Of a DNA stretch of 64,000 nt, positions 1,625-24,324 are shown one piece after another. The DNA comes from Arthrobacter sp. UKPF54-2 (lineage in GTDB: Bacteria; Actinomycetota; Actinomycetes; Actinomycetales; Micrococcaceae), in NCBI RefSeq assembly GCF_007858535.1, contig NZ_CP040174.1:558001-622000 (forward strand), written 5' to 3'. The notes under the pieces were generated by a model. It was not told where the DNA came from, did not search any database, and saw nothing but the letters and a program-made list of their open reading frames with translations. Within the stretch, counting starts at the first letter, position 1. The number at the start of each line of letters is the position of its first letter. The translations under genes and the position numbers were made by a program.

Positions 1625-2443
1625 TTAGACGGCCTGGTTGAGCATCGGCCCCTGCGGGAAGATGGTCCGGGTGATCCCGCCGGCTGTCGCTTCGGAGAGC
1701 TGGGCCAGGTAATCGTTCCGGCGGCGCGGCGTGATCCGCGACTGCGGCTCGAAACCCTGGTCCGGGTCGTCGGCGTAGTGGGCGGTGAGGCCGTCGCGCA
1801 TGAGCCGGATCGCTTCGGCGCGCTGTTGCGACACGGCCGCGTGGGTGGACCCCAGCTCGGCCGCGAGGTCCTTGACGGTGCGGTCGCCGAAGTAGATCTC
1901 CTCGACCACGTAGCGCATCCGCTCCGGGAGGGACTTCACGGCGGCCCGGAGGTACTGGAGCCGTTCGTCCGCGAGCACCGAATGCTCCGGGGAGAGGGTT
2001 TCCGCCGCGAGGGTGTCCACAACGGCGTCGTCGAGCGGTGTGAGCGTGCGCGACGCATCTGCGAGCGCTGCTTCCACGATGCTTTGCTGGACGCCGAGTG
2101 CGGAGGCGATCTCGTCAACCGAGGGCGTGCGGCCGAGGGCTGCTGCGAGGGTTTCCTGGACGGACATGGTCTCTTTGATTCGGCGCCGCGCCGAGCGGGT
2201 GGCCCAGTCGCTGGCCCGCATCTCGTCCGCGAAGGCGCCCAGGATACGGCGCCGGGCGAAGGCCCCGAAGGGCACGCCAAGGTCGGGGTCGAAGGAGTCT
2301 GCCGAGGTAATCAGGGCAACGGCACCGGCCGACGCCAGGTCATCGCGCGAGAGGTGGGACGCCTTCGAGCACAAATCAGAGACGAGGTAACCCACCAGCG
2401 GAAGGTGCTGCGTGACCATCTCGTTGCGTTCCACGCGATTCAA
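1625..2443 (-). CDS. fliA: RNA polymerase sigma factor for flagellar operon (sigma-28, FliA)
   Basis: This is a sigma-70 family protein of about 272 residues. Region 2 is recognisable in the RRRILGAFADEMR stretch followed by DWATRSARRR, which resembles the FliA/WhiG signature (RxRGAxxDExRxxDWxxRS). Regions 3 and 4 follow, with a C-terminal helix-turn-helix (TVKDLAAELG...AVSQQRAEA). It directs RNA polymerase to flagellar promoters; four matching promoters are visible in the window. The start is uncertain: TTG at 2443 sits 6 nt after GGGGGA and is preferred, but GTG 2434 and ATG 2419 are possible. The frame stays open upstream to 2557, but that part looks non-coding. No anti-sigma factor flgM is seen. 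Confidence 0.88.
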   Translation of the reverse strand: MNRVERNEMVTQHLPLVGYLVSDLCSKASHLSRDDLASAGAVALITSADSFDPDLGVPFGAFARRRILGAFADEMRASDWATRSARRRIKETMSVQETLAAALGRTPSVDEIASALGVQQSIVEAALADASRTLTPLDDAVVDTLAAETLSPEHSVLADERLQYLRAAVKSLPERMRYVVEEIYFGDRTVKDLAAELGSTHAAVSQQRAEAIRLMRDGLTAHYADDPDQGFEPQSRITPRRRNDYLAQLSEATAGGITRTIFPQGPMLNQAV

Positions 2444-2668
2444 AAGTGTGTCCCCCCATGAGACCGGATCAGGAGCTTTAAAACCCTGAGCGCCGCACCC
2501 GCAAACGGTCCCGCACTCCCCCCATGGGAGGCGGTGTTCGAAGCTGGGGCGCAGCACCCAGAACGAAACCTATCACCTGATCGGGAATCTGCGTGTACCC
2601 TCAGGGAAAAGCTTGGCGGAAAATGCGGAAAGCCGTAATTTGGCCGGGATGGCAAGGGAATGGGGCCC

Positions 2669-3184
2669 ATGAGTGCAGGGGATCTTTCGGCGGCGCTGTG
2701 GCAAGAGCGGCGGCAGTTGGAACTGCTCCTGTTCAGGCTGGAAACCCAGCGCCTGCACGTGGCCGCCGGCAACACCCAATGGCTGACCTTTACCGCGTCC
2801 GAGGTGGAGTCGGTACTGGACCGGCTGCGGTTCGAGGCCCTGGCGCGGAACGTCGAATCGGCGGGCGTAGCGGCCGAATGGGGTCTGCCGGCGCAGGCGA
2901 CCCTGGTCGAACTCATTGCCGCCGCCCCGCCGGGTTCCTGGCCGACGGTCCTGCAGGAGCACCTGGACGGCCTGCGTGAACTCCTGTCCCGGCTCGGCGA
3001 CACGGCCCGCGCCAGCGAGGAGATGCTTCAGAGCCTGCAACTGCCCGCCGGCGCCGGCGATCCGGCCGGGATGCTGGAGCAGCTCACGATGGCGGGAAAC
3101 GTGGAGCGGGCCCTGGCGATCACGCGCCGCGCCACCGCGCCGCTGATGGCCCAGTACCTCGGCGACGACGCGAATTCCCACTAA
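2669..3184 (+). CDS. FlgN/FliT-like flagellar protein, paralogue of the gene at 29087
   Basis: This is a helical protein of 171 residues. From its first residue it aligns with the FlgN-like protein upstream of flgK: both begin with a short stretch ending LSA-x-LW-x-ER, then share spaced motifs (TFxxxEVExVL, ARxxExAxVAxxWGLPxxATLxEL). FlgN proteins chaperone the hook-associated proteins FlgK and FlgL; whether this copy does so is inference. The alignment and an AAGGGA 11 nt upstream select ATG 2669 over ATG 2660. It diverges from fliA and converges on csrA with only 6 nt between the stops. A domain-specific chaperone for another export substrate is possible. Confidence 0.7.
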   Translation: MSAGDLSAALWQERRQLELLLFRLETQRLHVAAGNTQWLTFTASEVESVLDRLRFEALARNVESAGVAAEWGLPAQATLVELIAAAPPGSWPTVLQEHLDGLRELLSRLGDTARASEEMLQSLQLPAGAGDPAGMLEQLTMAGNVERALAITRRATAPLMAQYLGDDANSH

Positions 3185-3190
3185 CCGCCG

Positions 3191-3451
3191 TTAGTCGACG
3201 GGGCGGGCGGCCGCCGGGGGCAGCAACCCGCGCAGGGCGTCCTCGGTTCCGGAACCGGCTTCCGCGCCCGCTTCGGCCGCCGCCAGGTTCGCCGCGGCGA
3301 TGGCCTCGATGACTTCCCTGCGCTGGATCGGGACGCCGCGGGGCGCCTCGATGCCGATCCGGACGCCGTCGCCGCGGCCTTCCAGAACAGTGATGACGAT
3401 GCCGTCGCCGATCATGATCTGTTCGCCCGGCTTGCGTGTGAGTACCAGCAT
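3191..3451 (-). CDS. csrA: Carbon storage regulator CsrA (translational repressor)
   Basis: The N-terminal 50 residues match CsrA closely: MLVLTRKPGEQIMIGD at the start, then ITVLE and VRIGIEAPRGVPIQRREV. CsrA is a dimeric RNA-binding protein that recognises GGA motifs in hairpin loops and blocks ribosome access. At 86 residues it is longer than the usual 60-75, with an Ala/Glu-rich tail. It is the last gene of the flagellar operon, 9 nt after the FlhF-like gene. In Gram-positive flagellar systems it is antagonised by FliW; here fliW lies 28 kb away at 31915 instead of next to csrA. Confidence 0.95.
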   Translation of the reverse strand: MLVLTRKPGEQIMIGDGIVITVLEGRGDGVRIGIEAPRGVPIQRREVIEAIAAANLAAAEAGAEAGSGTEDALRGLLPPAAARPVD

Positions 3452-3460
3452 TCTCTCAAT

Positions 3461-4621
3461 CTACCCTTCGTGGCCGGGCGCTGCGTCCCACGGCAGCGGC
3501 CGGGTCGCCGGGCGCCCGTCGATCCAGCCGACAGGCAGGCCGAGGTCGTCAACGCTTTCGGGCGTGGCGGTGTCCGCCGCGCCCACGACGGCCACCGCGG
3601 CAACGTCAAGCCGCGCCCGCAGCAGGCCGACCCAGCGGGCAGTGTCCTCATGTTTGCGTCCGGCGTCCACGACCACCCAGAGCTGGTCCGGAGAGAGCGC
3701 TGCGATCGCCTGGAGCCGGGCCAGGGTGTGGCGCCCCTTGCCCAGTCCGAAGGCGGCCAGCACGGTCTGCTCCGTTTCGACGGCATGGGCGCGGGCCGCC
3801 GTCGCGCTCTGGCGTCCGTCCAGGTGCAGGTGTCCGTAGGCGCTGAGCTCCCCAGCGGTGCGGACGTCCGCGCCGCCGGCGGCGATGGACATGGCCAGGG
3901 CGGTGTCCAGCGCGTCGTCGTCGAGTCCCACCAGGACCACCAGGTCACCGGTGCCGCCGAGCGGGACCGGGGGCATCTCGCGAACGGGCGCGGCGGCCCG
4001 CGCCGTGGGCGACGGCGACGGCGGCACCGGCGGGCCGGGTGCCGGCGCGGGGGGCTCCGCTCCCCCGCTCCCCGGGTGGGCCGGAACCCGGGCGCCGGAG
4101 CGCGCCGGTTCGGGCGCCGGCGGACGGAGGCCGGAACCGAGCTGGTCCAGCAGTTCAGCGAAGCCCGGCGATTCGGTGGACACTCCCGGGCCGGCCGTGC
4201 GGTGCAGGGTCAGTTCGGCGGCGTCGGCCTCGGCCAGCAGGGCTGCGATCGCGTCGCCCTGCAGCTCGTGGCCGGGCGCGGAGGCGGACCGCAGTCCGCC
4301 CGGTACCCCCGGCCGCGGCGTGTCGCGGGGGGCGTCCCGTGGCGTATCCCGTTGCGTGTCGCGGACGGCGTCGCGCGGCGCGTCCACGATCTCGCCCTCG
4401 GCGAGGATGTCGGCGTCCGGGACCACCTCGCCGGTCACGACGTCGTGCTTGGGCTGGACCTCGATGATGGCCTCGTAGCGGTTGGCGGCGAAGAGCCCTG
4501 CGATGCCGGGGCTGATCACGCGCTCCGCGGACACGATGCGCGCGGCGGGGCCGTACTGGGCTTCCGCCTTGCTGCGGATTTCCTCCAGCGTGGCTCCTTT
4601 AAGCCGATAGCGGTTCGGCAT
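3461..4621 (-). CDS. FlhF-like protein with degenerate GTPase domain
   Basis: The protein has 386 residues. Residues 1-60 resemble the N-terminal domain of FlhF (ATLEEIRSKAEAQYGPAARIVSAERV pattern, split here by position 10-35). Residues 82-104 hold RDxx tetrapeptide repeats, and about 165-215 is Pro/Ala-rich. Residues 225-372 align in order with the SRP-type GTPase domain, but the key motifs are gone: VVLVGLDDDALDT (228-240) sits where the P-loop should be, WVVVDAGRKHED (315-326) where DTAG is expected, and GLPVGWIDG (361-369) matches the domain end. It overlaps flhA by 23 nt and precedes csrA, the place of flhF in many operons. No flhG is present. GTP binding seems unlikely; the role is unknown. 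Confidence 0.65.
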   Translation of the reverse strand: MPNRYRLKGATLEEIRSKAEAQYGPAARIVSAERVISPGIAGLFAANRYEAIIEVQPKHDVVTGEVVPDADILAEGEIVDAPRDAVRDTQRDTPRDAPRDTPRPGVPGGLRSASAPGHELQGDAIAALLAEADAAELTLHRTAGPGVSTESPGFAELLDQLGSGLRPPAPEPARSGARVPAHPGSGGAEPPAPAPGPPVPPSPSPTARAAAPVREMPPVPLGGTGDLVVLVGLDDDALDTALAMSIAAGGADVRTAGELSAYGHLHLDGRQSATAARAHAVETEQTVLAAFGLGKGRHTLARLQAIAALSPDQLWVVVDAGRKHEDTARWVGLLRARLDVAAVAVVGAADTATPESVDDLGLPVGWIDGRPATRPLPWDAAPGHEG

Positions 4622-6647
4622 GGCGCACGACTCCTACGGTTTCGATCCGGACGTTGGCGGAAGTGACTTCGCGGTAGGAGAGCACCGGAAGCGAGCCCGG
4701 CTGCGCTCCGACGAGCCGGTGGATGGCCGGGCGCAGCGCCGGGGCGCAGACGAGGACTGCCTGCCGGTTGGCGGCGGCCGCGGAATCCACCGCGTTGCGC
4801 ACCGAGCGGAGCACGGCATCGAGCCGGTCCTGACCCATCACAATCTGGCTGCCGCCCTCGGCCGGGCGCATGTCCTCGAGCATGGACTGCTCCAGCAGCG
4901 GATCGATCATGATCACGTTGAGCACGGGGCCGTCCATGAACTTGGCGGTCAGCGCCGGTCCCAGGGCCTGGCGGGCCGCCTCCACGAGCGACTCCGGGTC
5001 GGTGGAAATCTTGGCCCGGAGGGTGAGCGCCTCGTAGATGCGGGCCAGGTCGTTGATCGGGACCTGTTCGTCGAGCAGGCCCTGGAGCACCCGCTGCAGC
5101 TCCGCGAGGGAGAGCAGGGCCGGGGTGAGCTCGTCGACGGCGGAGGGGCTTTGTTTCCGGACGCCCTCGGTCAGCACCCGGACATCCTCGCGGGAGAGCA
5201 GCCGGGCGGCGTTGGCCGTGACGATCGAGGACAGGTGGGTGACCAGCACCGAGACCCGGTCGATCACGGTGGCACCGGTCATTTCGGCGTTGTGCCGCAT
5301 CTCGGCCGGAATCCACTTCCCGGCGAGGCCGAAGACCGGTTCGATCATCGCGGCGCCCGGTAGCGAGTCCAGCGAGTCGCCGAGGGCCAGCATCTGGCCG
5401 GCCGGGGCGGTGCCGCGGCCGGCCTCCACGCCCGCGATCCGGATGGCGTAGGTGGCCGGCGGCAGGTCCACGCTATCCCTGGTGCGGACCGGGGGGATGA
5501 CCAGGCCCAGTTCCATGGCGATCTTATGCCGGAGCGACCGGACCCGGGCCAGCAGGTCGTCGGAGGCGCCGGAGACCATGTCCACCAGGTCCGGGGCCAG
5601 CAGGATCTCCACGGGGTGGATGCGCATGTCCTCGAGCAGCTTCTCGTTCGGGTCCAGTTCCGGGGAGTTCAGCGCGGCGGCTTCGGCGTCGCGGGTCCGC
5701 GCCGCCTCCTGCTGACTGGCGGCGGTGCGGCGCGAGGCCAGGATCAGCCCGGCGCCGACCAGGACGAACGGGATGGGCGGCATGCCCGGGATCAGGGCCA
5801 TGGCGAGGGCGGCCACCCCGGCGATCAACAGGGCGTTGGGCGACTGCAGCAGCTGGGTGGAGGCCGTCCGGCCCATGTCCGCTTCGGCGTTGGACCGGGT
5901 GACGATCATGCCGGTGGAGACGGCCATCAGCAGGGCCGGGATCTGGGTGACGAGGCCATCGCCCATGGTCAGCAGGCCGTAGGTGCCCAGGGCGTCGCCG
6001 ATCTCCATGCCGCGCTGCAGCATGCCGATGGCGATGCCGCCGATGAAGTTGATGATGATGATGATGATGCCGGCGATGGCGTCGCCCTTGACGAACTTTG
6101 AGGCACCGTCCATGGCACCGTAGAAGTCGGCCTCGGCCGAGACCTCCGCGCGCCGCTCCCGGGCCTGGGTGTCCGTGATCAGGCCGCCGTTGAGGTCGGC
6201 GTCGATCGCCATCTGCTTGCCCGGCATGGCGTCCAGGGTGAAGCGCGCGCCCACTTCTGCGACGCGCTCGGCGCCCTTGGTGACCACCACGAACTGGATC
6301 ACCACCAGGATCAGGAAGACGACGGCGCCGATGATCATGGAGCCGCCGACGGTCACCTTGCCGAAGGCCTCAATGACCTGCCCGGCGTAGCCGTTGCCCA
6401 GCACCAGTCGGGTGGAGGCGACGTTCAGCCCCAGCCGGAACAGGGTGGCCACCAGCAGCAGCGAGGGGAACACGGAGAAGTCCAGCGGCTTCTTCACGAA
6501 CATGCTGGTCAGCAGCACCAGCAACGCGAGCAGGATGTTGCACACGATCAGGAAGTCCAGCAGCGGCGCGGGCACGGGAACCACCAGCAGCAGCACGATG
6601 CCGACGATGCCGATGGGCACCGCCAGCCGGGCGAGCCTGTTGTTCAT
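4599..6647 (-). CDS. flhA: Flagellar type III export component FlhA
   Basis: The protein has 682 residues, the usual FlhA length. The first 300 residues hold eight hydrophobic helices with the conserved FHIPEP-family features RLGLNVASTRLVL near residue 70 and DAMPGKQMAIDADLNGG near 150. The rest is the soluble domain that docks chaperone-substrate complexes (a PVRxRDS stretch, then EGVRKQSPSAVDELTP). FlhA forms the nonameric ring of the flagellar export gate in the plasma membrane and couples proton flow to export. It starts 49 nt after flhB and overlaps the flhF-like gene. Confidence 0.97.
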   Translation of the reverse strand: MNNRLARLAVPIGIVGIVLLLVVPVPAPLLDFLIVCNILLALLVLLTSMFVKKPLDFSVFPSLLLVATLFRLGLNVASTRLVLGNGYAGQVIEAFGKVTVGGSMIIGAVVFLILVVIQFVVVTKGAERVAEVGARFTLDAMPGKQMAIDADLNGGLITDTQARERRAEVSAEADFYGAMDGASKFVKGDAIAGIIIIIINFIGGIAIGMLQRGMEIGDALGTYGLLTMGDGLVTQIPALLMAVSTGMIVTRSNAEADMGRTASTQLLQSPNALLIAGVAALAMALIPGMPPIPFVLVGAGLILASRRTAASQQEAARTRDAEAAALNSPELDPNEKLLEDMRIHPVEILLAPDLVDMVSGASDDLLARVRSLRHKIAMELGLVIPPVRTRDSVDLPPATYAIRIAGVEAGRGTAPAGQMLALGDSLDSLPGAAMIEPVFGLAGKWIPAEMRHNAEMTGATVIDRVSVLVTHLSSIVTANAARLLSREDVRVLTEGVRKQSPSAVDELTPALLSLAELQRVLQGLLDEQVPINDLARIYEALTLRAKISTDPESLVEAARQALGPALTAKFMDGPVLNVIMIDPLLEQSMLEDMRPAEGGSQIVMGQDRLDAVLRSVRNAVDSAAAANRQAVLVCAPALRPAIHRLVGAQPGSLPVLSYREVTSANVRIETVGVVRHAEPLSA

Positions 6648-21061: not shown

Positions 21062-21711
21062 GGCTGGCCGCCCAGGGAATCGTCGGAGGCGTTCGGCGAC
21101 CACTGCTGGTCCCCCAGCAGGGCCGCCTTGGCGCGGGCGAGGGCGCTGCCGAGGCTGGCGTCGAGCCAGCCCTGCTGGTATTCCACCTTGGCGTCGCCGC
21201 GCTGCAGGGACGCGTCCGCGAGCAGCGGCAGGCCGGCGGGAAGGTCCTGGCCTTCCTTGGCGAGCACCTCGATGTCCGCCGGGTGCAGGCGGATAGCCAG
21301 CACGGTGGCGGCGTCGTTGCCGGAGAGGGCGCGGTCCAAGGCGGCGCGGGCGGTCCGGGTCCCCTCGGCCAGTTCGTAGCCCAGGATGGCCTCGGCGAGT
21401 TCCAGCGCAGTGCGGGCCAGGACCTCCTCGGCGTCGTGCAGGGCCTGGACGTTGCGGTGCGCGAAGTCGGTGCGGGCCACCGCGAGGGCGCGGACGGCAC
21501 GGTCCAGATCCTTCTGCCCGGCGGCGAGCGAGGCGGCCTGCTCGGCCGCCATCCGGTCGCGCCAGCGGCGCTGTTCCTTCGCGGCGGCGCGTACCCCCGC
21601 TGCGTAGCCGGCGGCGTGGCCCTCGGTGTAGCCGGCCTGCTCGCTGGCCGGGCCGGACGAACGCAGTGAGGGGAAGACGATGCGGGCCGGCGCGGCCCCC
21701 TCAGTAGACAT
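21058..21711 (-). CDS. fliH: Flagellar assembly protein FliH
   Basis: The protein has 217 residues. An N-terminal region with AGYTEGHAAGYAAGVRAA shows the GxxxG-type repeats common in FliH. A long helix follows, then a V-ATPase E-subunit-like C-terminal domain (about 95-205). FliH binds and regulates FliI and links it to the C-ring. It overlaps fliG by 11 nt and fliI by 4 nt. Sequence identity in the family is low, so position carries much of the call. Confidence 0.85.
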   Translation of the reverse strand: MSTEGAAPARIVFPSLRSSGPASEQAGYTEGHAAGYAAGVRAAAKEQRRWRDRMAAEQAASLAAGQKDLDRAVRALAVARTDFAHRNVQALHDAEEVLARTALELAEAILGYELAEGTRTARAALDRALSGNDAATVLAIRLHPADIEVLAKEGQDLPAGLPLLADASLQRGDAKVEYQQGWLDASLGSALARAKAALLGDQQWSPNASDDSLGGQP

Positions 21712-22717
21712 AGTCTTCTTCGTCCCCGCGCTGGATCGTGATCTGGCCTTCGGCCTCGAGCTCGCGGATGGAGCGGACGACGGCGGCGCGCGCTTCCTCG
21801 ATCTGCGAGGCGCGCAGCGGTCCCAGCGCGGCCATTTCGGATTCGAGGATTTCGAGGTTGCGCCCCGAAACGTTGGTGGTGATGGTCTCCAGCACCGGTT
21901 CCGTGGCGCCCTTCATGGCCACGGCGAGGACGGAGGCGTCCAGGCCGCGGAGCACCAGCTGCACGTCGCGGCGTTCCAGCTTCACGATGTCGTCGAACGT
22001 CACCATCTGGGCGCGGATTTCCACGGCGAGGTCAGGATCGAGCAGGTCCAGGCCGTCCAGGACGGACCGTTCGGTGCCGGCGTCGGTGCGGTTGATGATT
22101 TCCAGCAGCGGCTGGATGCCGCCCACCACCTTGGAGGCCTGCTGCGACACGGCGGCGCCGCCGCGCAGCTTCAGCGTGTCCGCCACGATGCCAATGGCTT
22201 CCGGCGCGCCGGAGCCCATCGTGGCGATGCTCAGGGCTACGTCGGCCCTAAGGGAGCCTGGCAGCCCGGACATCACGGCCGAGGCCTTGCGCGGGCTCAG
22301 GTGGGCCAGGACCAGGGCGATGGTCTGCGGCAGTTCGCCGTCGATCAGGGCCAGGATCTGCACCGGTTCGATGTCTTCGAGGAACTCAAAGGACTTGCCG
22401 GCCATGTTCACCGTCAGCCGGTTGATCAGGCCGGCGGCCTTCTCCGAGCCGAAGGACGCCTCAAGCAGGCCCTCGGCGAGCTCCCGGCCGCCGCGGGCCT
22501 GCCGCGGGCTGCTGAGGGCAGCTTCGTGGAAGTCCTTCATGATCTGTTCGGCGACGTCGGGATCCACTTTGCGGAGCCGGACAATCTCGGCGGCGATTTC
22601 CTCCGCCTCGGCGTCGGTGAACTGGGCCATCACCCGCGCCGCGTTGGCGGGGCTCATCTGCATCAGGACGACGGCGGCACGCTGGGTGCCGGTGAGGGTG
22701 GCGTCGGCGACTTTCAT
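21701..22717 (-). CDS. fliG: Flagellar motor switch protein FliG
   Basis: The protein has 338 residues, the usual FliG length. The N-terminal FliF-binding domain (TGTQRAAVVLMQM...), the middle EHPQ-type region (here GELPQTIALVLAHLSPRKASAVM, about 125-150) and the C-terminal torque helix region (LVLRGLDASVLAVAMKGATEPV...MSGRN-like) are all visible. Charged residues in the last domain contact MotA. It overlaps fliF by 4 nt and fliH by 11 nt. Confidence 0.96.
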   Translation of the reverse strand: MKVADATLTGTQRAAVVLMQMSPANAARVMAQFTDAEAEEIAAEIVRLRKVDPDVAEQIMKDFHEAALSSPRQARGGRELAEGLLEASFGSEKAAGLINRLTVNMAGKSFEFLEDIEPVQILALIDGELPQTIALVLAHLSPRKASAVMSGLPGSLRADVALSIATMGSGAPEAIGIVADTLKLRGGAAVSQQASKVVGGIQPLLEIINRTDAGTERSVLDGLDLLDPDLAVEIRAQMVTFDDIVKLERRDVQLVLRGLDASVLAVAMKGATEPVLETITTNVSGRNLEILESEMAALGPLRASQIEEARAAVVRSIRELEAEGQITIQRGDEEDYVY

Positions 22718-24324
22718 GCGGGCTGCCTGTCATCCATCAGGCCGCGGAGGTAGTCGGCGGCCTTCTCCGGGTTGGCGGCGACCATGTTGTCGATTTCCTG
22801 CATGCGGCGTTCGGCTTCGAGCACTTCCATCGGCGGGGCCGGCAGCGGCTGCAGCGGCAGCGCGGTCAGCGGGATGGCCGAGGTCGCGGGGGCCGGGTCG
22901 AAGGCCGTGACGGCCGGCAGCGGGGGCAGCAGGTCCAGGCGTTCGCCGAGGTCCACGGGTTCGCGCTTCTGCCGGCGGCGCAGAATGATGGTGATGATCA
23001 GGGCCAGGATCAGCAGGCCGAGCAGGATGCTGCCGGCGGTGACGAGGGTCCCGAAGAATGCCGCCTGTTTCTGCGCTTCGATCTCGGCTTTGGCCGCGTC
23101 GAGGGAGGCGTTGGCCTGGTCCGCTGCGGCCGTGCTGAACGGGATCACCTCGACGGTGACTACGTCCCCCCGGGCGCGGTCGACGCCGGCCGCGGAGGTG
23201 ACGAGCGCGGTCAGCGAGCCGATGTTCAGCCCGCCGGCGGCGGACTGGCTGACGGCCACCGAGATGGTCTGGCGCTTGACGGCGCCCGGCGGGATGGTCC
23301 GGTCCTCGGTGACCTTGTTGACGGCGTTGTTCTTGGTGGCCGTGGAGGAGTCGAAGTTGCCGTTGCCGCTGGAACCGCCGGGGACGGCGATATTGTCCGG
23401 GCCGAGGACGCCGGCGCCCCCTCCCCCGGTTCCGGTGTACTTCTCGGTCTTGGAGGATTCGCTCAGCGGCAGCGCACCGGGGGTGTTGGAGAATGTTTCG
23501 CTCTTCTGCTGGGCGGATTCGCCAGTGACGTCCGCGGCGACCGCCACGGTGGAGTTGCCGGGGCCCACCACACGGTCCAGGACGGCGCGGACGGCGTCGC
23601 CGGTGCGCTGCTGGTAGTCGGCGGCCTGCTTGGAGGAGGACCCGGCGGCCCCGCCGCCCACGGTGGAGAGGACGTTGCCCTGCGAGTCGACCACCGAGAC
23701 GTTGGCGGGTTTGAGGTTCTCGATCGCGGCCGAGGTCAGGTGCACAATGGCCTGGACTTTATCGCCGGAGAGTGTCACGCCGGGGGCGGTCTCCACGAAG
23801 ACGGAGGCCGTGGTGTCCGGGGTTTTGGAGACGAAGACGGTCTTTTCCGGGATCGCGAGCCGGACGGCGGCGGTCTTCACGCCTTCCATGGCGGAAATGG
23901 TGCTGGCCAGTTCACCTTCGAGCGCGCGCTTGTAGGTGACCGACTGCTGGAATTCCGAGGACGTGACGCCCATCTTGTCCAGCAGCGAGTACCCGGTGGC
24001 GGCGGCGGTGGGGAGGCCGGCGGCCGCGGCCTTGAGGCGCTCGTCGTAGACCTTGTCCTGCGGCACGAGGATGGTGGCGCCGCCGTCGCTGAGTTCGTAG
24101 GGCACATTGTCCTTGCGCAGCTGCTCCACGATGCCGTTCGCGTCCGTGTTCTTGAGCCCGGAGAACAGCGGCGTCATGGTGGGCTTGGACAGCCAGGCGG
24201 ACAGCGCGATGATGCCCACCACGAGCAGCGCAGTGCCGATCACGGCGAGCGTGCGCTGTCCGGTGGTGAAGTTCTTGAGGCCGGCGCCGAAGCGCTGGAA
24301 GAAGACGGTAATCTGCGGAGGCAT
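22714..24324 (-). CDS. fliF: Flagellar MS-ring protein FliF
   Basis: The protein has 536 residues. It has an N-terminal membrane helix (about 24-45), two ring-building periplasmic motifs (PLFSGLKNTDANGIVEQLRKDNVPYEL; ALEGELASTISAMEGVKTAAVRLAIPEKTVF, both in spaced form), a variable Gly/Ser-rich insertion around 290-350, and a second membrane helix (about 435-460). The cytoplasmic tail ends with the FliG-binding helix. It forms the MS ring on which rod and C-ring assemble. Confidence 0.96.
   Translation of the reverse strand: MPPQITVFFQRFGAGLKNFTTGQRTLAVIGTALLVVGIIALSAWLSKPTMTPLFSGLKNTDANGIVEQLRKDNVPYELSDGGATILVPQDKVYDERLKAAAAGLPTAAATGYSLLDKMGVTSSEFQQSVTYKRALEGELASTISAMEGVKTAAVRLAIPEKTVFVSKTPDTTASVFVETAPGVTLSGDKVQAIVHLTSAAIENLKPANVSVVDSQGNVLSTVGGGAAGSSSKQAADYQQRTGDAVRAVLDRVVGPGNSTVAVAADVTGESAQQKSETFSNTPGALPLSESSKTEKYTGTGGGGAGVLGPDNIAVPGGSSGNGNFDSSTATKNNAVNKVTEDRTIPPGAVKRQTISVAVSQSAAGGLNIGSLTALVTSAAGVDRARGDVVTVEVIPFSTAAADQANASLDAAKAEIEAQKQAAFFGTLVTAGSILLGLLILALIITIILRRRQKREPVDLGERLDLLPPLPAVTAFDPAPATSAIPLTALPLQPLPAPPMEVLEAERRMQEIDNMVAANPEKAADYLRGLMDDRQPA

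Follow-up and report, generated by a model that had tools for sequence, protein, structure and literature searches.

The gene described here, pseudo-flhF, lies in a 64,000-nucleotide stretch of the Arthrobacter sp. UKPF54-2 genome (contig NZ_CP040174.1, positions 558,001–622,000), the whole of which is hereafter called the window. A sequence-only reading had placed the gene in the flhF position and had proposed an FlhF-like protein that has lost its GTPase motifs. The gene indeed overlaps flhA by 23 nt and is followed 9 nt on by csrA, and both domains of its product match FlhF in profile comparisons. FlhF (TIGR03499) is a signal recognition particle (SRP)-type GTPase for flagellar placement and number. 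A Pfam search of the 386-residue product gives no match, and NCBIfam TIGR03499 matches residues 6–88 only (16.1 bits, E = 0.0085), below the equivalog cut-off for FlhF of 174.15 bits. A chance open reading frame (ORF) is unlikely because 289 homologues at E ≤ 1e-3 were found among 8000 candidates scored. Among 120 matches listed, the readable product names are 'hypothetical protein', mostly from Arthrobacter or Pseudarthrobacter, and a scan of named genomes yielded 47 loci in Arthrobacter, Cryobacterium, Curtobacterium, Diaminobutyricibacter and other Microbacteriaceae. The family is apparently an undescribed actinobacterial FlhF variant that ordinary annotation would miss; the sequence-only reading had suspected an undescribed variant, and the distribution is far wider than it had claimed.

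Homology to FlhF with loss of the GTPase motifs is very probable. Profiles of the N-terminal and C-terminal parts were built iteratively from the gene after flhA in 140 flagellated genomes of the class, of which 104 are from the order (all its FlhA-positive genomes besides the source) and 36 from outside it (36 of 37, G058 being omitted). The FlhF profile combined 120 listed FlhF matches with 14 from the phylum. Both parts align with this profile in hhalign: the N-part scores 80.8 (P = 1.1e-13) and the C-part 42.9 (P = 1.7e-5), the latter colinearly between the P-loop strand and the closing loop. Trimming gaps from the FlhF profile gives scores of 80.5 and 40.5, respectively; as controls, 150 column shuffles reach at most 21.3 and 19.5, and a reversed profile gives 23.0 and 13.7. 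The second half of the C-domain carries the match to FlhF (score 40.5). The C-part matches a profile of 16 Ffh/FtsY sequences less strongly than it does FlhF (P = 0.0065). hhalign leaves 16 query columns gapped at the position of the insertion box, which in the SRP GTPases Ffh and FtsY lies between the second and third strands. In the reverse search, the C-profile recovers one true FlhF, that of G581 (E = 2.5e-6), and none of the other 13 true FlhF genes at E ≤ 1e-3.

Models were predicted with AlphaFold2 (AF2) from two alignments, A2 (the window with 76 C-domains, taken from the 85 non-redundant ones among 95) and A3 (49 hand-chosen relatives). Residues 210–386 have a predicted local distance difference test (pLDDT) score of 90.8 and adopt, in the models, the SRP-GTPase G-domain fold, with matches to FlhF, Ffh and FtsY: by entry title, SRP, FtsY or FlhF structures account for 50 of the 50 rows listed by VIA-align and 49 of the 50 listed by Foldseek, the remaining one being HypB. 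By sequence, the single chain gave six chance-like PDB matches (E 0.23 to 2.5) and the full-length profile two (E 0.61 and 2.5); the C-profile matched a designed protein (E = 0.0021), other Rossmann-type chains and FtsY (E ~0.8, in the hhalign register). Pfam assigns no family to the C-domain of the window. TsiV, the commonest weak Pfam match (7 of 77 C-domains, best 5.3e-5), was taken as spurious, and SRP54 appears in one of the 77, at 0.16.

The loss of the GTPase motifs proposed from the sequence holds throughout the family (Table 1). Motif counts refer to 96 C-domains, from 95 loci and the window, with the 63-residue C-piece of locus L069 excluded. The hhalign register places the P-loop Lys at L238, the DTAG Asp at F291 and the TKLD Lys at G347. 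None of the 96 rows contains GK[ST], DT[AP]G or [TN]KxD; in true FlhF, regular expressions find GxxxxGK[ST] in 134 of 134, DT[AP]G in 131 and TKxD in 123. An intact P-loop was also looked for elsewhere in the 386-residue chain of the window, and GxxxxGK[ST] is not present there. The P-loop site reads VGLDDDALDT, just as printed in the sequence-only reading, whose assignment of VDAGRKHED to the DTAG site had to be rejected: hhalign with two FlhF alignments places this segment on the next FlhF strand, S(A/V)TTKxxD, and DTAG on FGLG. Conserved among the 96 are D319 (86), A320 (93), P354 (95) and P363 (95).

The N-terminus resembles the FliG-interaction domain (FID) of FlhF. Its AF2 layout (strand 4–9, helix 12–23, strands 27–37 and 46–55) comprises three strands and one helix, as in the FlhF FID, and TIGR03499 is reached at E ≤ 1 in 18 of 23 N-domains, with a best value of 6.1e-8. 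Against PDB sequences, the N-profile matches DNA polymerases only (E ≥ 0.22), and the FID crystal structure is not among the matches. The linker that follows has pLDDT mostly below 60 outside its two helices. A predicted structure had been suggested as a check for an NG-domain fold; the G domain was recovered and the helical N-subdomain ahead of it was not, the middle helices comparing with FlhF at P = 0.35 and AF2 predicting disorder there. On the same comparison, a remnant N-subdomain in the two linker helices was not supported. Very long linkers occur in L128 and L157, which have both domains, and in L135, L141, L142, L147, L149 and L152, the C-end of which lies beyond the retrieved stretch; these ORFs measure ~1,000 to at least 1,317 aa, some with repeats.

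Table 1. Features of the pseudo-flhF locus (coordinates are those of the window)
Feature	Residues	Coordinates	Strand	Remarks
pseudo-flhF, FlhF homologue without GTPase motifs		3461..4621	minus	386 aa, ATG start
FID-like N-terminus	1–60	4442..4621	minus	hhalign, TIGR03499, AF2
Variable, mostly disordered linker	61–217	3971..4441	minus	Two helices (120–141, 152–164); AF2
Degenerate SRP-GTPase G domain	218–374	3500..3970	minus	AF2, Foldseek, VIA-align, hhalign
P-loop position, reads GLDDDALDT	232–240	3902..3928	minus	Lys 0/96
DTAG position, reads FGLG	291–294 (F291–G294)	3740..3751	minus	Asp 0/96
VDAGRK, equivalent to FlhF S(A/V)TTK	318–323	3653..3670	minus	hhalign
TKLDE position, reads VGAAD	346–350	3572..3586	minus	Lys 0/96, Asp 8/96
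flhA, overlapping upstream gene		4599..6647	minus	Pfam FHIPEP, E = 1.5e-236
csrA, next gene		3191..3451	minus	Pfam CsrA, E = 1.3e-24
flgN-like gene		2660..3184	plus	Pfam, E = 1.6e-7
FliA/WhiG-like sigma factor gene		1625..2557	minus	
fliG, putative partner of pseudo-FlhF		21701..22717	minus	Pfam FliG_N/M/C
fliF (MS ring)		22714..24324	minus	Pfam YscJ_FliF

The window also encodes the Pfam domains of flhB, fliI, fliG, fliF, fliD, flagellin and flgK. The flgN-like gene lies on the strand opposite to the flanking csrA and sigma-factor genes.

Purifying selection acts on both domains. Across 120 pairs among 16 genes, drawn from named Arthrobacter loci plus the window, the median ratio of nonsynonymous to synonymous substitution rates (dN/dS) is 0.19 in the N-domain and 0.16 in the C-domain; the linker stands at 0.41 and flhA at 0.08. 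L215 and L216 were excluded from L201–L217 because their matches begin inside the gene. With a dN/dS of 0.16, the dead G domain is maintained.

The feature is class-wide, not local, and has graded forms in the phylum. Both domains are present in the gene after flhA in 95 of the 140 class loci (the C-piece of L069 is cut at a contig end), the N-domain only in seven complete ORFs (one, L086, probably frameshifted) and in 15 loci with an ORF that runs off the stretch, and the C-domain only in one (L121). The operon survey suggested earlier for the degenerate site found all 118 class ORFs bearing a domain to be P-loop-less, 16 of which run off the retrieved stretch, and TIGR03499 exceeds its cut-off in none of 197 class genomes. 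Across 296 phylum genomes, TIGR03499 exceeds the cut-off in 14 and FlhA is present in 52; strong C-domain matches (E ≤ 1e-30) come from six genomes, all FlhA-positive, with eight more between 1e-3 and 2.5e-6. Among flhA loci from outside the class, the ORF after flhA contains the N-domain in 28 of 33, and ten of those ORFs have a P-loop (G715 and G734 of the 52 FlhA-positive genomes are not included, L263 is unreadable owing to a misplaced flhA stop, and L262 and L291 are cut off). The DTAG motif is changed (to DTPG, DTPP or other) in all eight sequences inspected of these ten eroded FlhFs. The family C-domain occurs at E 1e-29 to 1e-40 in four of the 33 loci, in families f78 and f108, and true flhF directly follows flhA in L049 and L042.

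Several loci show other arrangements. In genus g150 (L113, L119, L122 and L124), an ORF of 113–115 aa with an FID-like N-terminus lies between flhA and csrA, and the C-domain was not found; these loci constitute a natural N-domain-only version. Conversely, L121 (G461, f4) has the C-domain without an FID-like N-domain in the flhA–csrA position. In the probably frameshifted L086:2491-3707, the N-part ORF stops at 287 aa and tblastn places the C-domain at 3219-3707. Loci without flhF have a small ORF (~80–130 aa; one of 177), membrane-type by eye, at or near the flhA stop: L163, L165, L167, L169, L175, L176, L178, L182, L183, L185, L186 and L187 (f30), L057 and L059 (f3), and L264, L265, L286 and L287 (f59). 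An FID-like N-terminus is joined to a P-loop-less C-terminus in L275, L278, L279, L280, L290, L292, L293 and L294 (f63, f82, f86 and f94). Identity of these C-termini with the family domain was not supported (eight sequences; P = 0.13 versus FlhF, 0.0041 versus the family), and they may represent either more advanced erosion or a new domain.

The absence of flhG claimed for the window was borne out: a Walker-A pattern search gives no match there, and none of the six weak genome matches of an FlhG query falls inside it. All 14 FlhF loci have a MinD-type ORF with DQAxxLR next to flhF; within up to ~4 kb after flhA, no such ORF was found in ten eroded-FlhF loci, 16 P-loop-less loci of other classes or 140 class loci; a more distant flhG is possible in other genomes. 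The phylum presents a series of FlhF with FlhG (14), eroded FlhF with the P-loop kept and no neighbouring FlhG (10), and P-loop-less forms. In an FlhA tree of 72 hand-chosen and hand-labelled rows, made by a quick method without FlhF locus L052, one change separates P-loop-bearing from P-loop-less rows (rows without the gene excluded), and all four labels take six changes; these counts do not distinguish gain from loss. On the simplest reading, FlhG loss would have been followed by erosion, a single P-loop loss and then several whole-gene losses.

Pseudo-FlhF is probably an FlhF homologue in the place of flhF that kept a nucleotide-independent flagellar role after the loss of FlhG and of GTP binding. 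Its likeliest function would be that of a nucleotide-independent adaptor holding FliG in early basal-body assembly; the scaffold at assembly sites imagined in the sequence-only reading would likewise fit the retained FliG-binding-type domain. In FlhF, the FID is the first 44–60 residues, and the NG domain binds HubP regardless of nucleotide (PMC11236974); a 2025 review adds that the need for FlhF GTPase activity varies among species (PMC12826062). We give about even chances to a mechanism in which a FliG adaptor carries a dead G domain. FlhG would have been lost from the locus first, and GTP binding would have been given up a single time, no later than in the ancestor of the later-branching actinobacterial classes. 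The N-terminal domain would hold FliG, the long linker would provide reach and the dead G domain would be a fixed protein–protein module, either a constitutive dimer or a binder of a landmark or membrane partner. FliG, and via FliG also FliF, would thereby be concentrated at basal-body start sites, and assembly or competition (FliM/FliN), instead of FlhG-triggered GTP hydrolysis, would bring about release. More tentatively, and a little short of an even chance, the FlhF published as lost from the later-branching classes would instead have been converted a single time to a pseudo-GTPase following FlhG loss, with a FliG-binding adaptor setting flagellar sites without a nucleotide switch.

Several points weigh against this interpretation. 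The first half of the C-domain alone has no significant match to the FlhF profile (score 16.8, P = 0.066), so that its assignment draws on fold and colinearity. The eroded P-loop FlhFs are no closer to the family C-domain than is FlhF (five sequences each; P = 2e-4 and 0.0022); they are therefore intermediate in motifs and not demonstrably in sequence, and a sequence bridge through them was not supported. Neither domain is present in 22 of the 140 flagellated class loci, as judged from ORFs starting −90 to +250 nt from the flhA stop, with a minimum length of 100 aa for the first 100 loci and of 80 aa otherwise, which suggests that the protein is dispensable for some actinobacterial flagella, although a gene lying more distantly may have escaped. 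The two domains are also separable, since L121 has the C-domain alone and seven complete ORFs the N-domain alone. In Pseudomonas aeruginosa, GDP weakens FlhF–FliG binding and the nucleotide state matters, according to PMC12713375; given this dependence, a GTP-free version would need to work differently.

If the N-terminus were true FlhF and an unrelated Rossmann-like domain with a separate function had taken the place of the C-domain, the unmatched first half, the lack of a Pfam family (TsiV weak in 7 of 77) and the failure of the eroded FlhFs to lie nearer in sequence than FlhF would be expected. The structural matches listed (50 of 50 and 49 of 50 rows), the match of the second half to FlhF (score 40.5) and the one true FlhF found reciprocally nevertheless make such a replacement improbable. 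A decaying remnant of little function, heading for loss, is very improbable: the dN/dS values of 0.19 and 0.16 indicate purifying selection on both domains, which are kept across many class families and in f78 and f108 outside the class, even though the gene can be lost, being absent near flhA in 22 of the 140 loci and reduced to its N-part in the seven complete ORFs.

It is rather unlikely that the pseudo-G domain is a flagellar-assembly sensor still binding a nucleotide in a non-canonical way, c-di-GMP, ppGpp or another small molecule. In its favour, strand and loop sites equivalent to those around the FlhF pocket are conserved (VVDAxRK, P354, P363 and LDG; D319 in 86, P354 in 95 and P363 in 95 of 96) and the dN/dS is 0.16, but conservation of the two prolines could be purely structural, and none of the 96 has the P-loop Lys, the DTAG Asp or the TKxD Lys at the aligned columns. 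Also unlikely is that the protein serves export or csrA/fliA regulation instead of acting at assembly sites, with the likeness to FlhF reflecting ancestry without shared function. The gene order flhA–pseudo-flhF–csrA–(flgN-like, other strand)–FliA/WhiG-like sigma factor would suit it; however, the strongest FlhF match is that of the FliG-interaction-type N-domain, and true flhF likewise sits after flhA (L049, L042).

According to an mBio 2023 study of actinobacterial flagella, FlhF is missing from the later classes, the ones that have no FlgF/FlgG (PMC10746217). Its candidates came from BLASTP and PSI-BLAST, those below 1e-5 being checked further by SMART and HHpred, and the family was possibly missed because its single-sequence score is weak. 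The present results correct that claim, and database proteins labelled 'hypothetical' can now be named and have in FliG a partner open to testing. No description of a P-loop-less FlhF was found among the titles and abstract openings listed from the PMC open-licence library, and the print record may hold one. Pseudo-FlhF is an FlhF lineage that arose in nature, is under selection and is GTPase-dead, and the phylum holds graded forms of it; the purpose of the GTPase cycle thereby becomes addressable by evolution and simple pull-downs. If a single conversion to a pseudo-GTPase did occur, the FlhF GTPase cycle would serve FlhG-dependent release and would be unneeded for FliG capture.

Pseudo-FlhF shares with FlhF (TIGR03499) its place directly after flhA and the order of N-terminal domain, linker and G-domain fold; it differs in lacking the P-loop, DTAG and TKLD motifs, a detectable N-subdomain and an FlhG neighbour, and in scoring 16.1 against 174.15 bits. 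On its motifs, its score and the missing FlhG it is not to be classed as an FlhF GTPase, yet it is a homologue of one and may work like the capture half of FlhF. Ffh and FtsY (SRP54 and the SRP receptor) are set apart by the weaker profile match (P = 0.0065 versus 1.7e-5 for FlhF), and by the missing GTPase motifs and flagellar context of pseudo-FlhF. The eroded FlhFs (f68, f69, f75, f89, f93 and f106) resemble it in the FID-like N-terminus, the position after flhA and the lack of an FlhG-type ORF in the retrieved stretch, but keep the P-loop in 10 of 10. The reported GTPase-site mutants of FlhF in P. aeruginosa and Vibrio are, by their titles, likewise without GTPase activity, but these are laboratory mutants, whereas pseudo-FlhF is a natural lineage.
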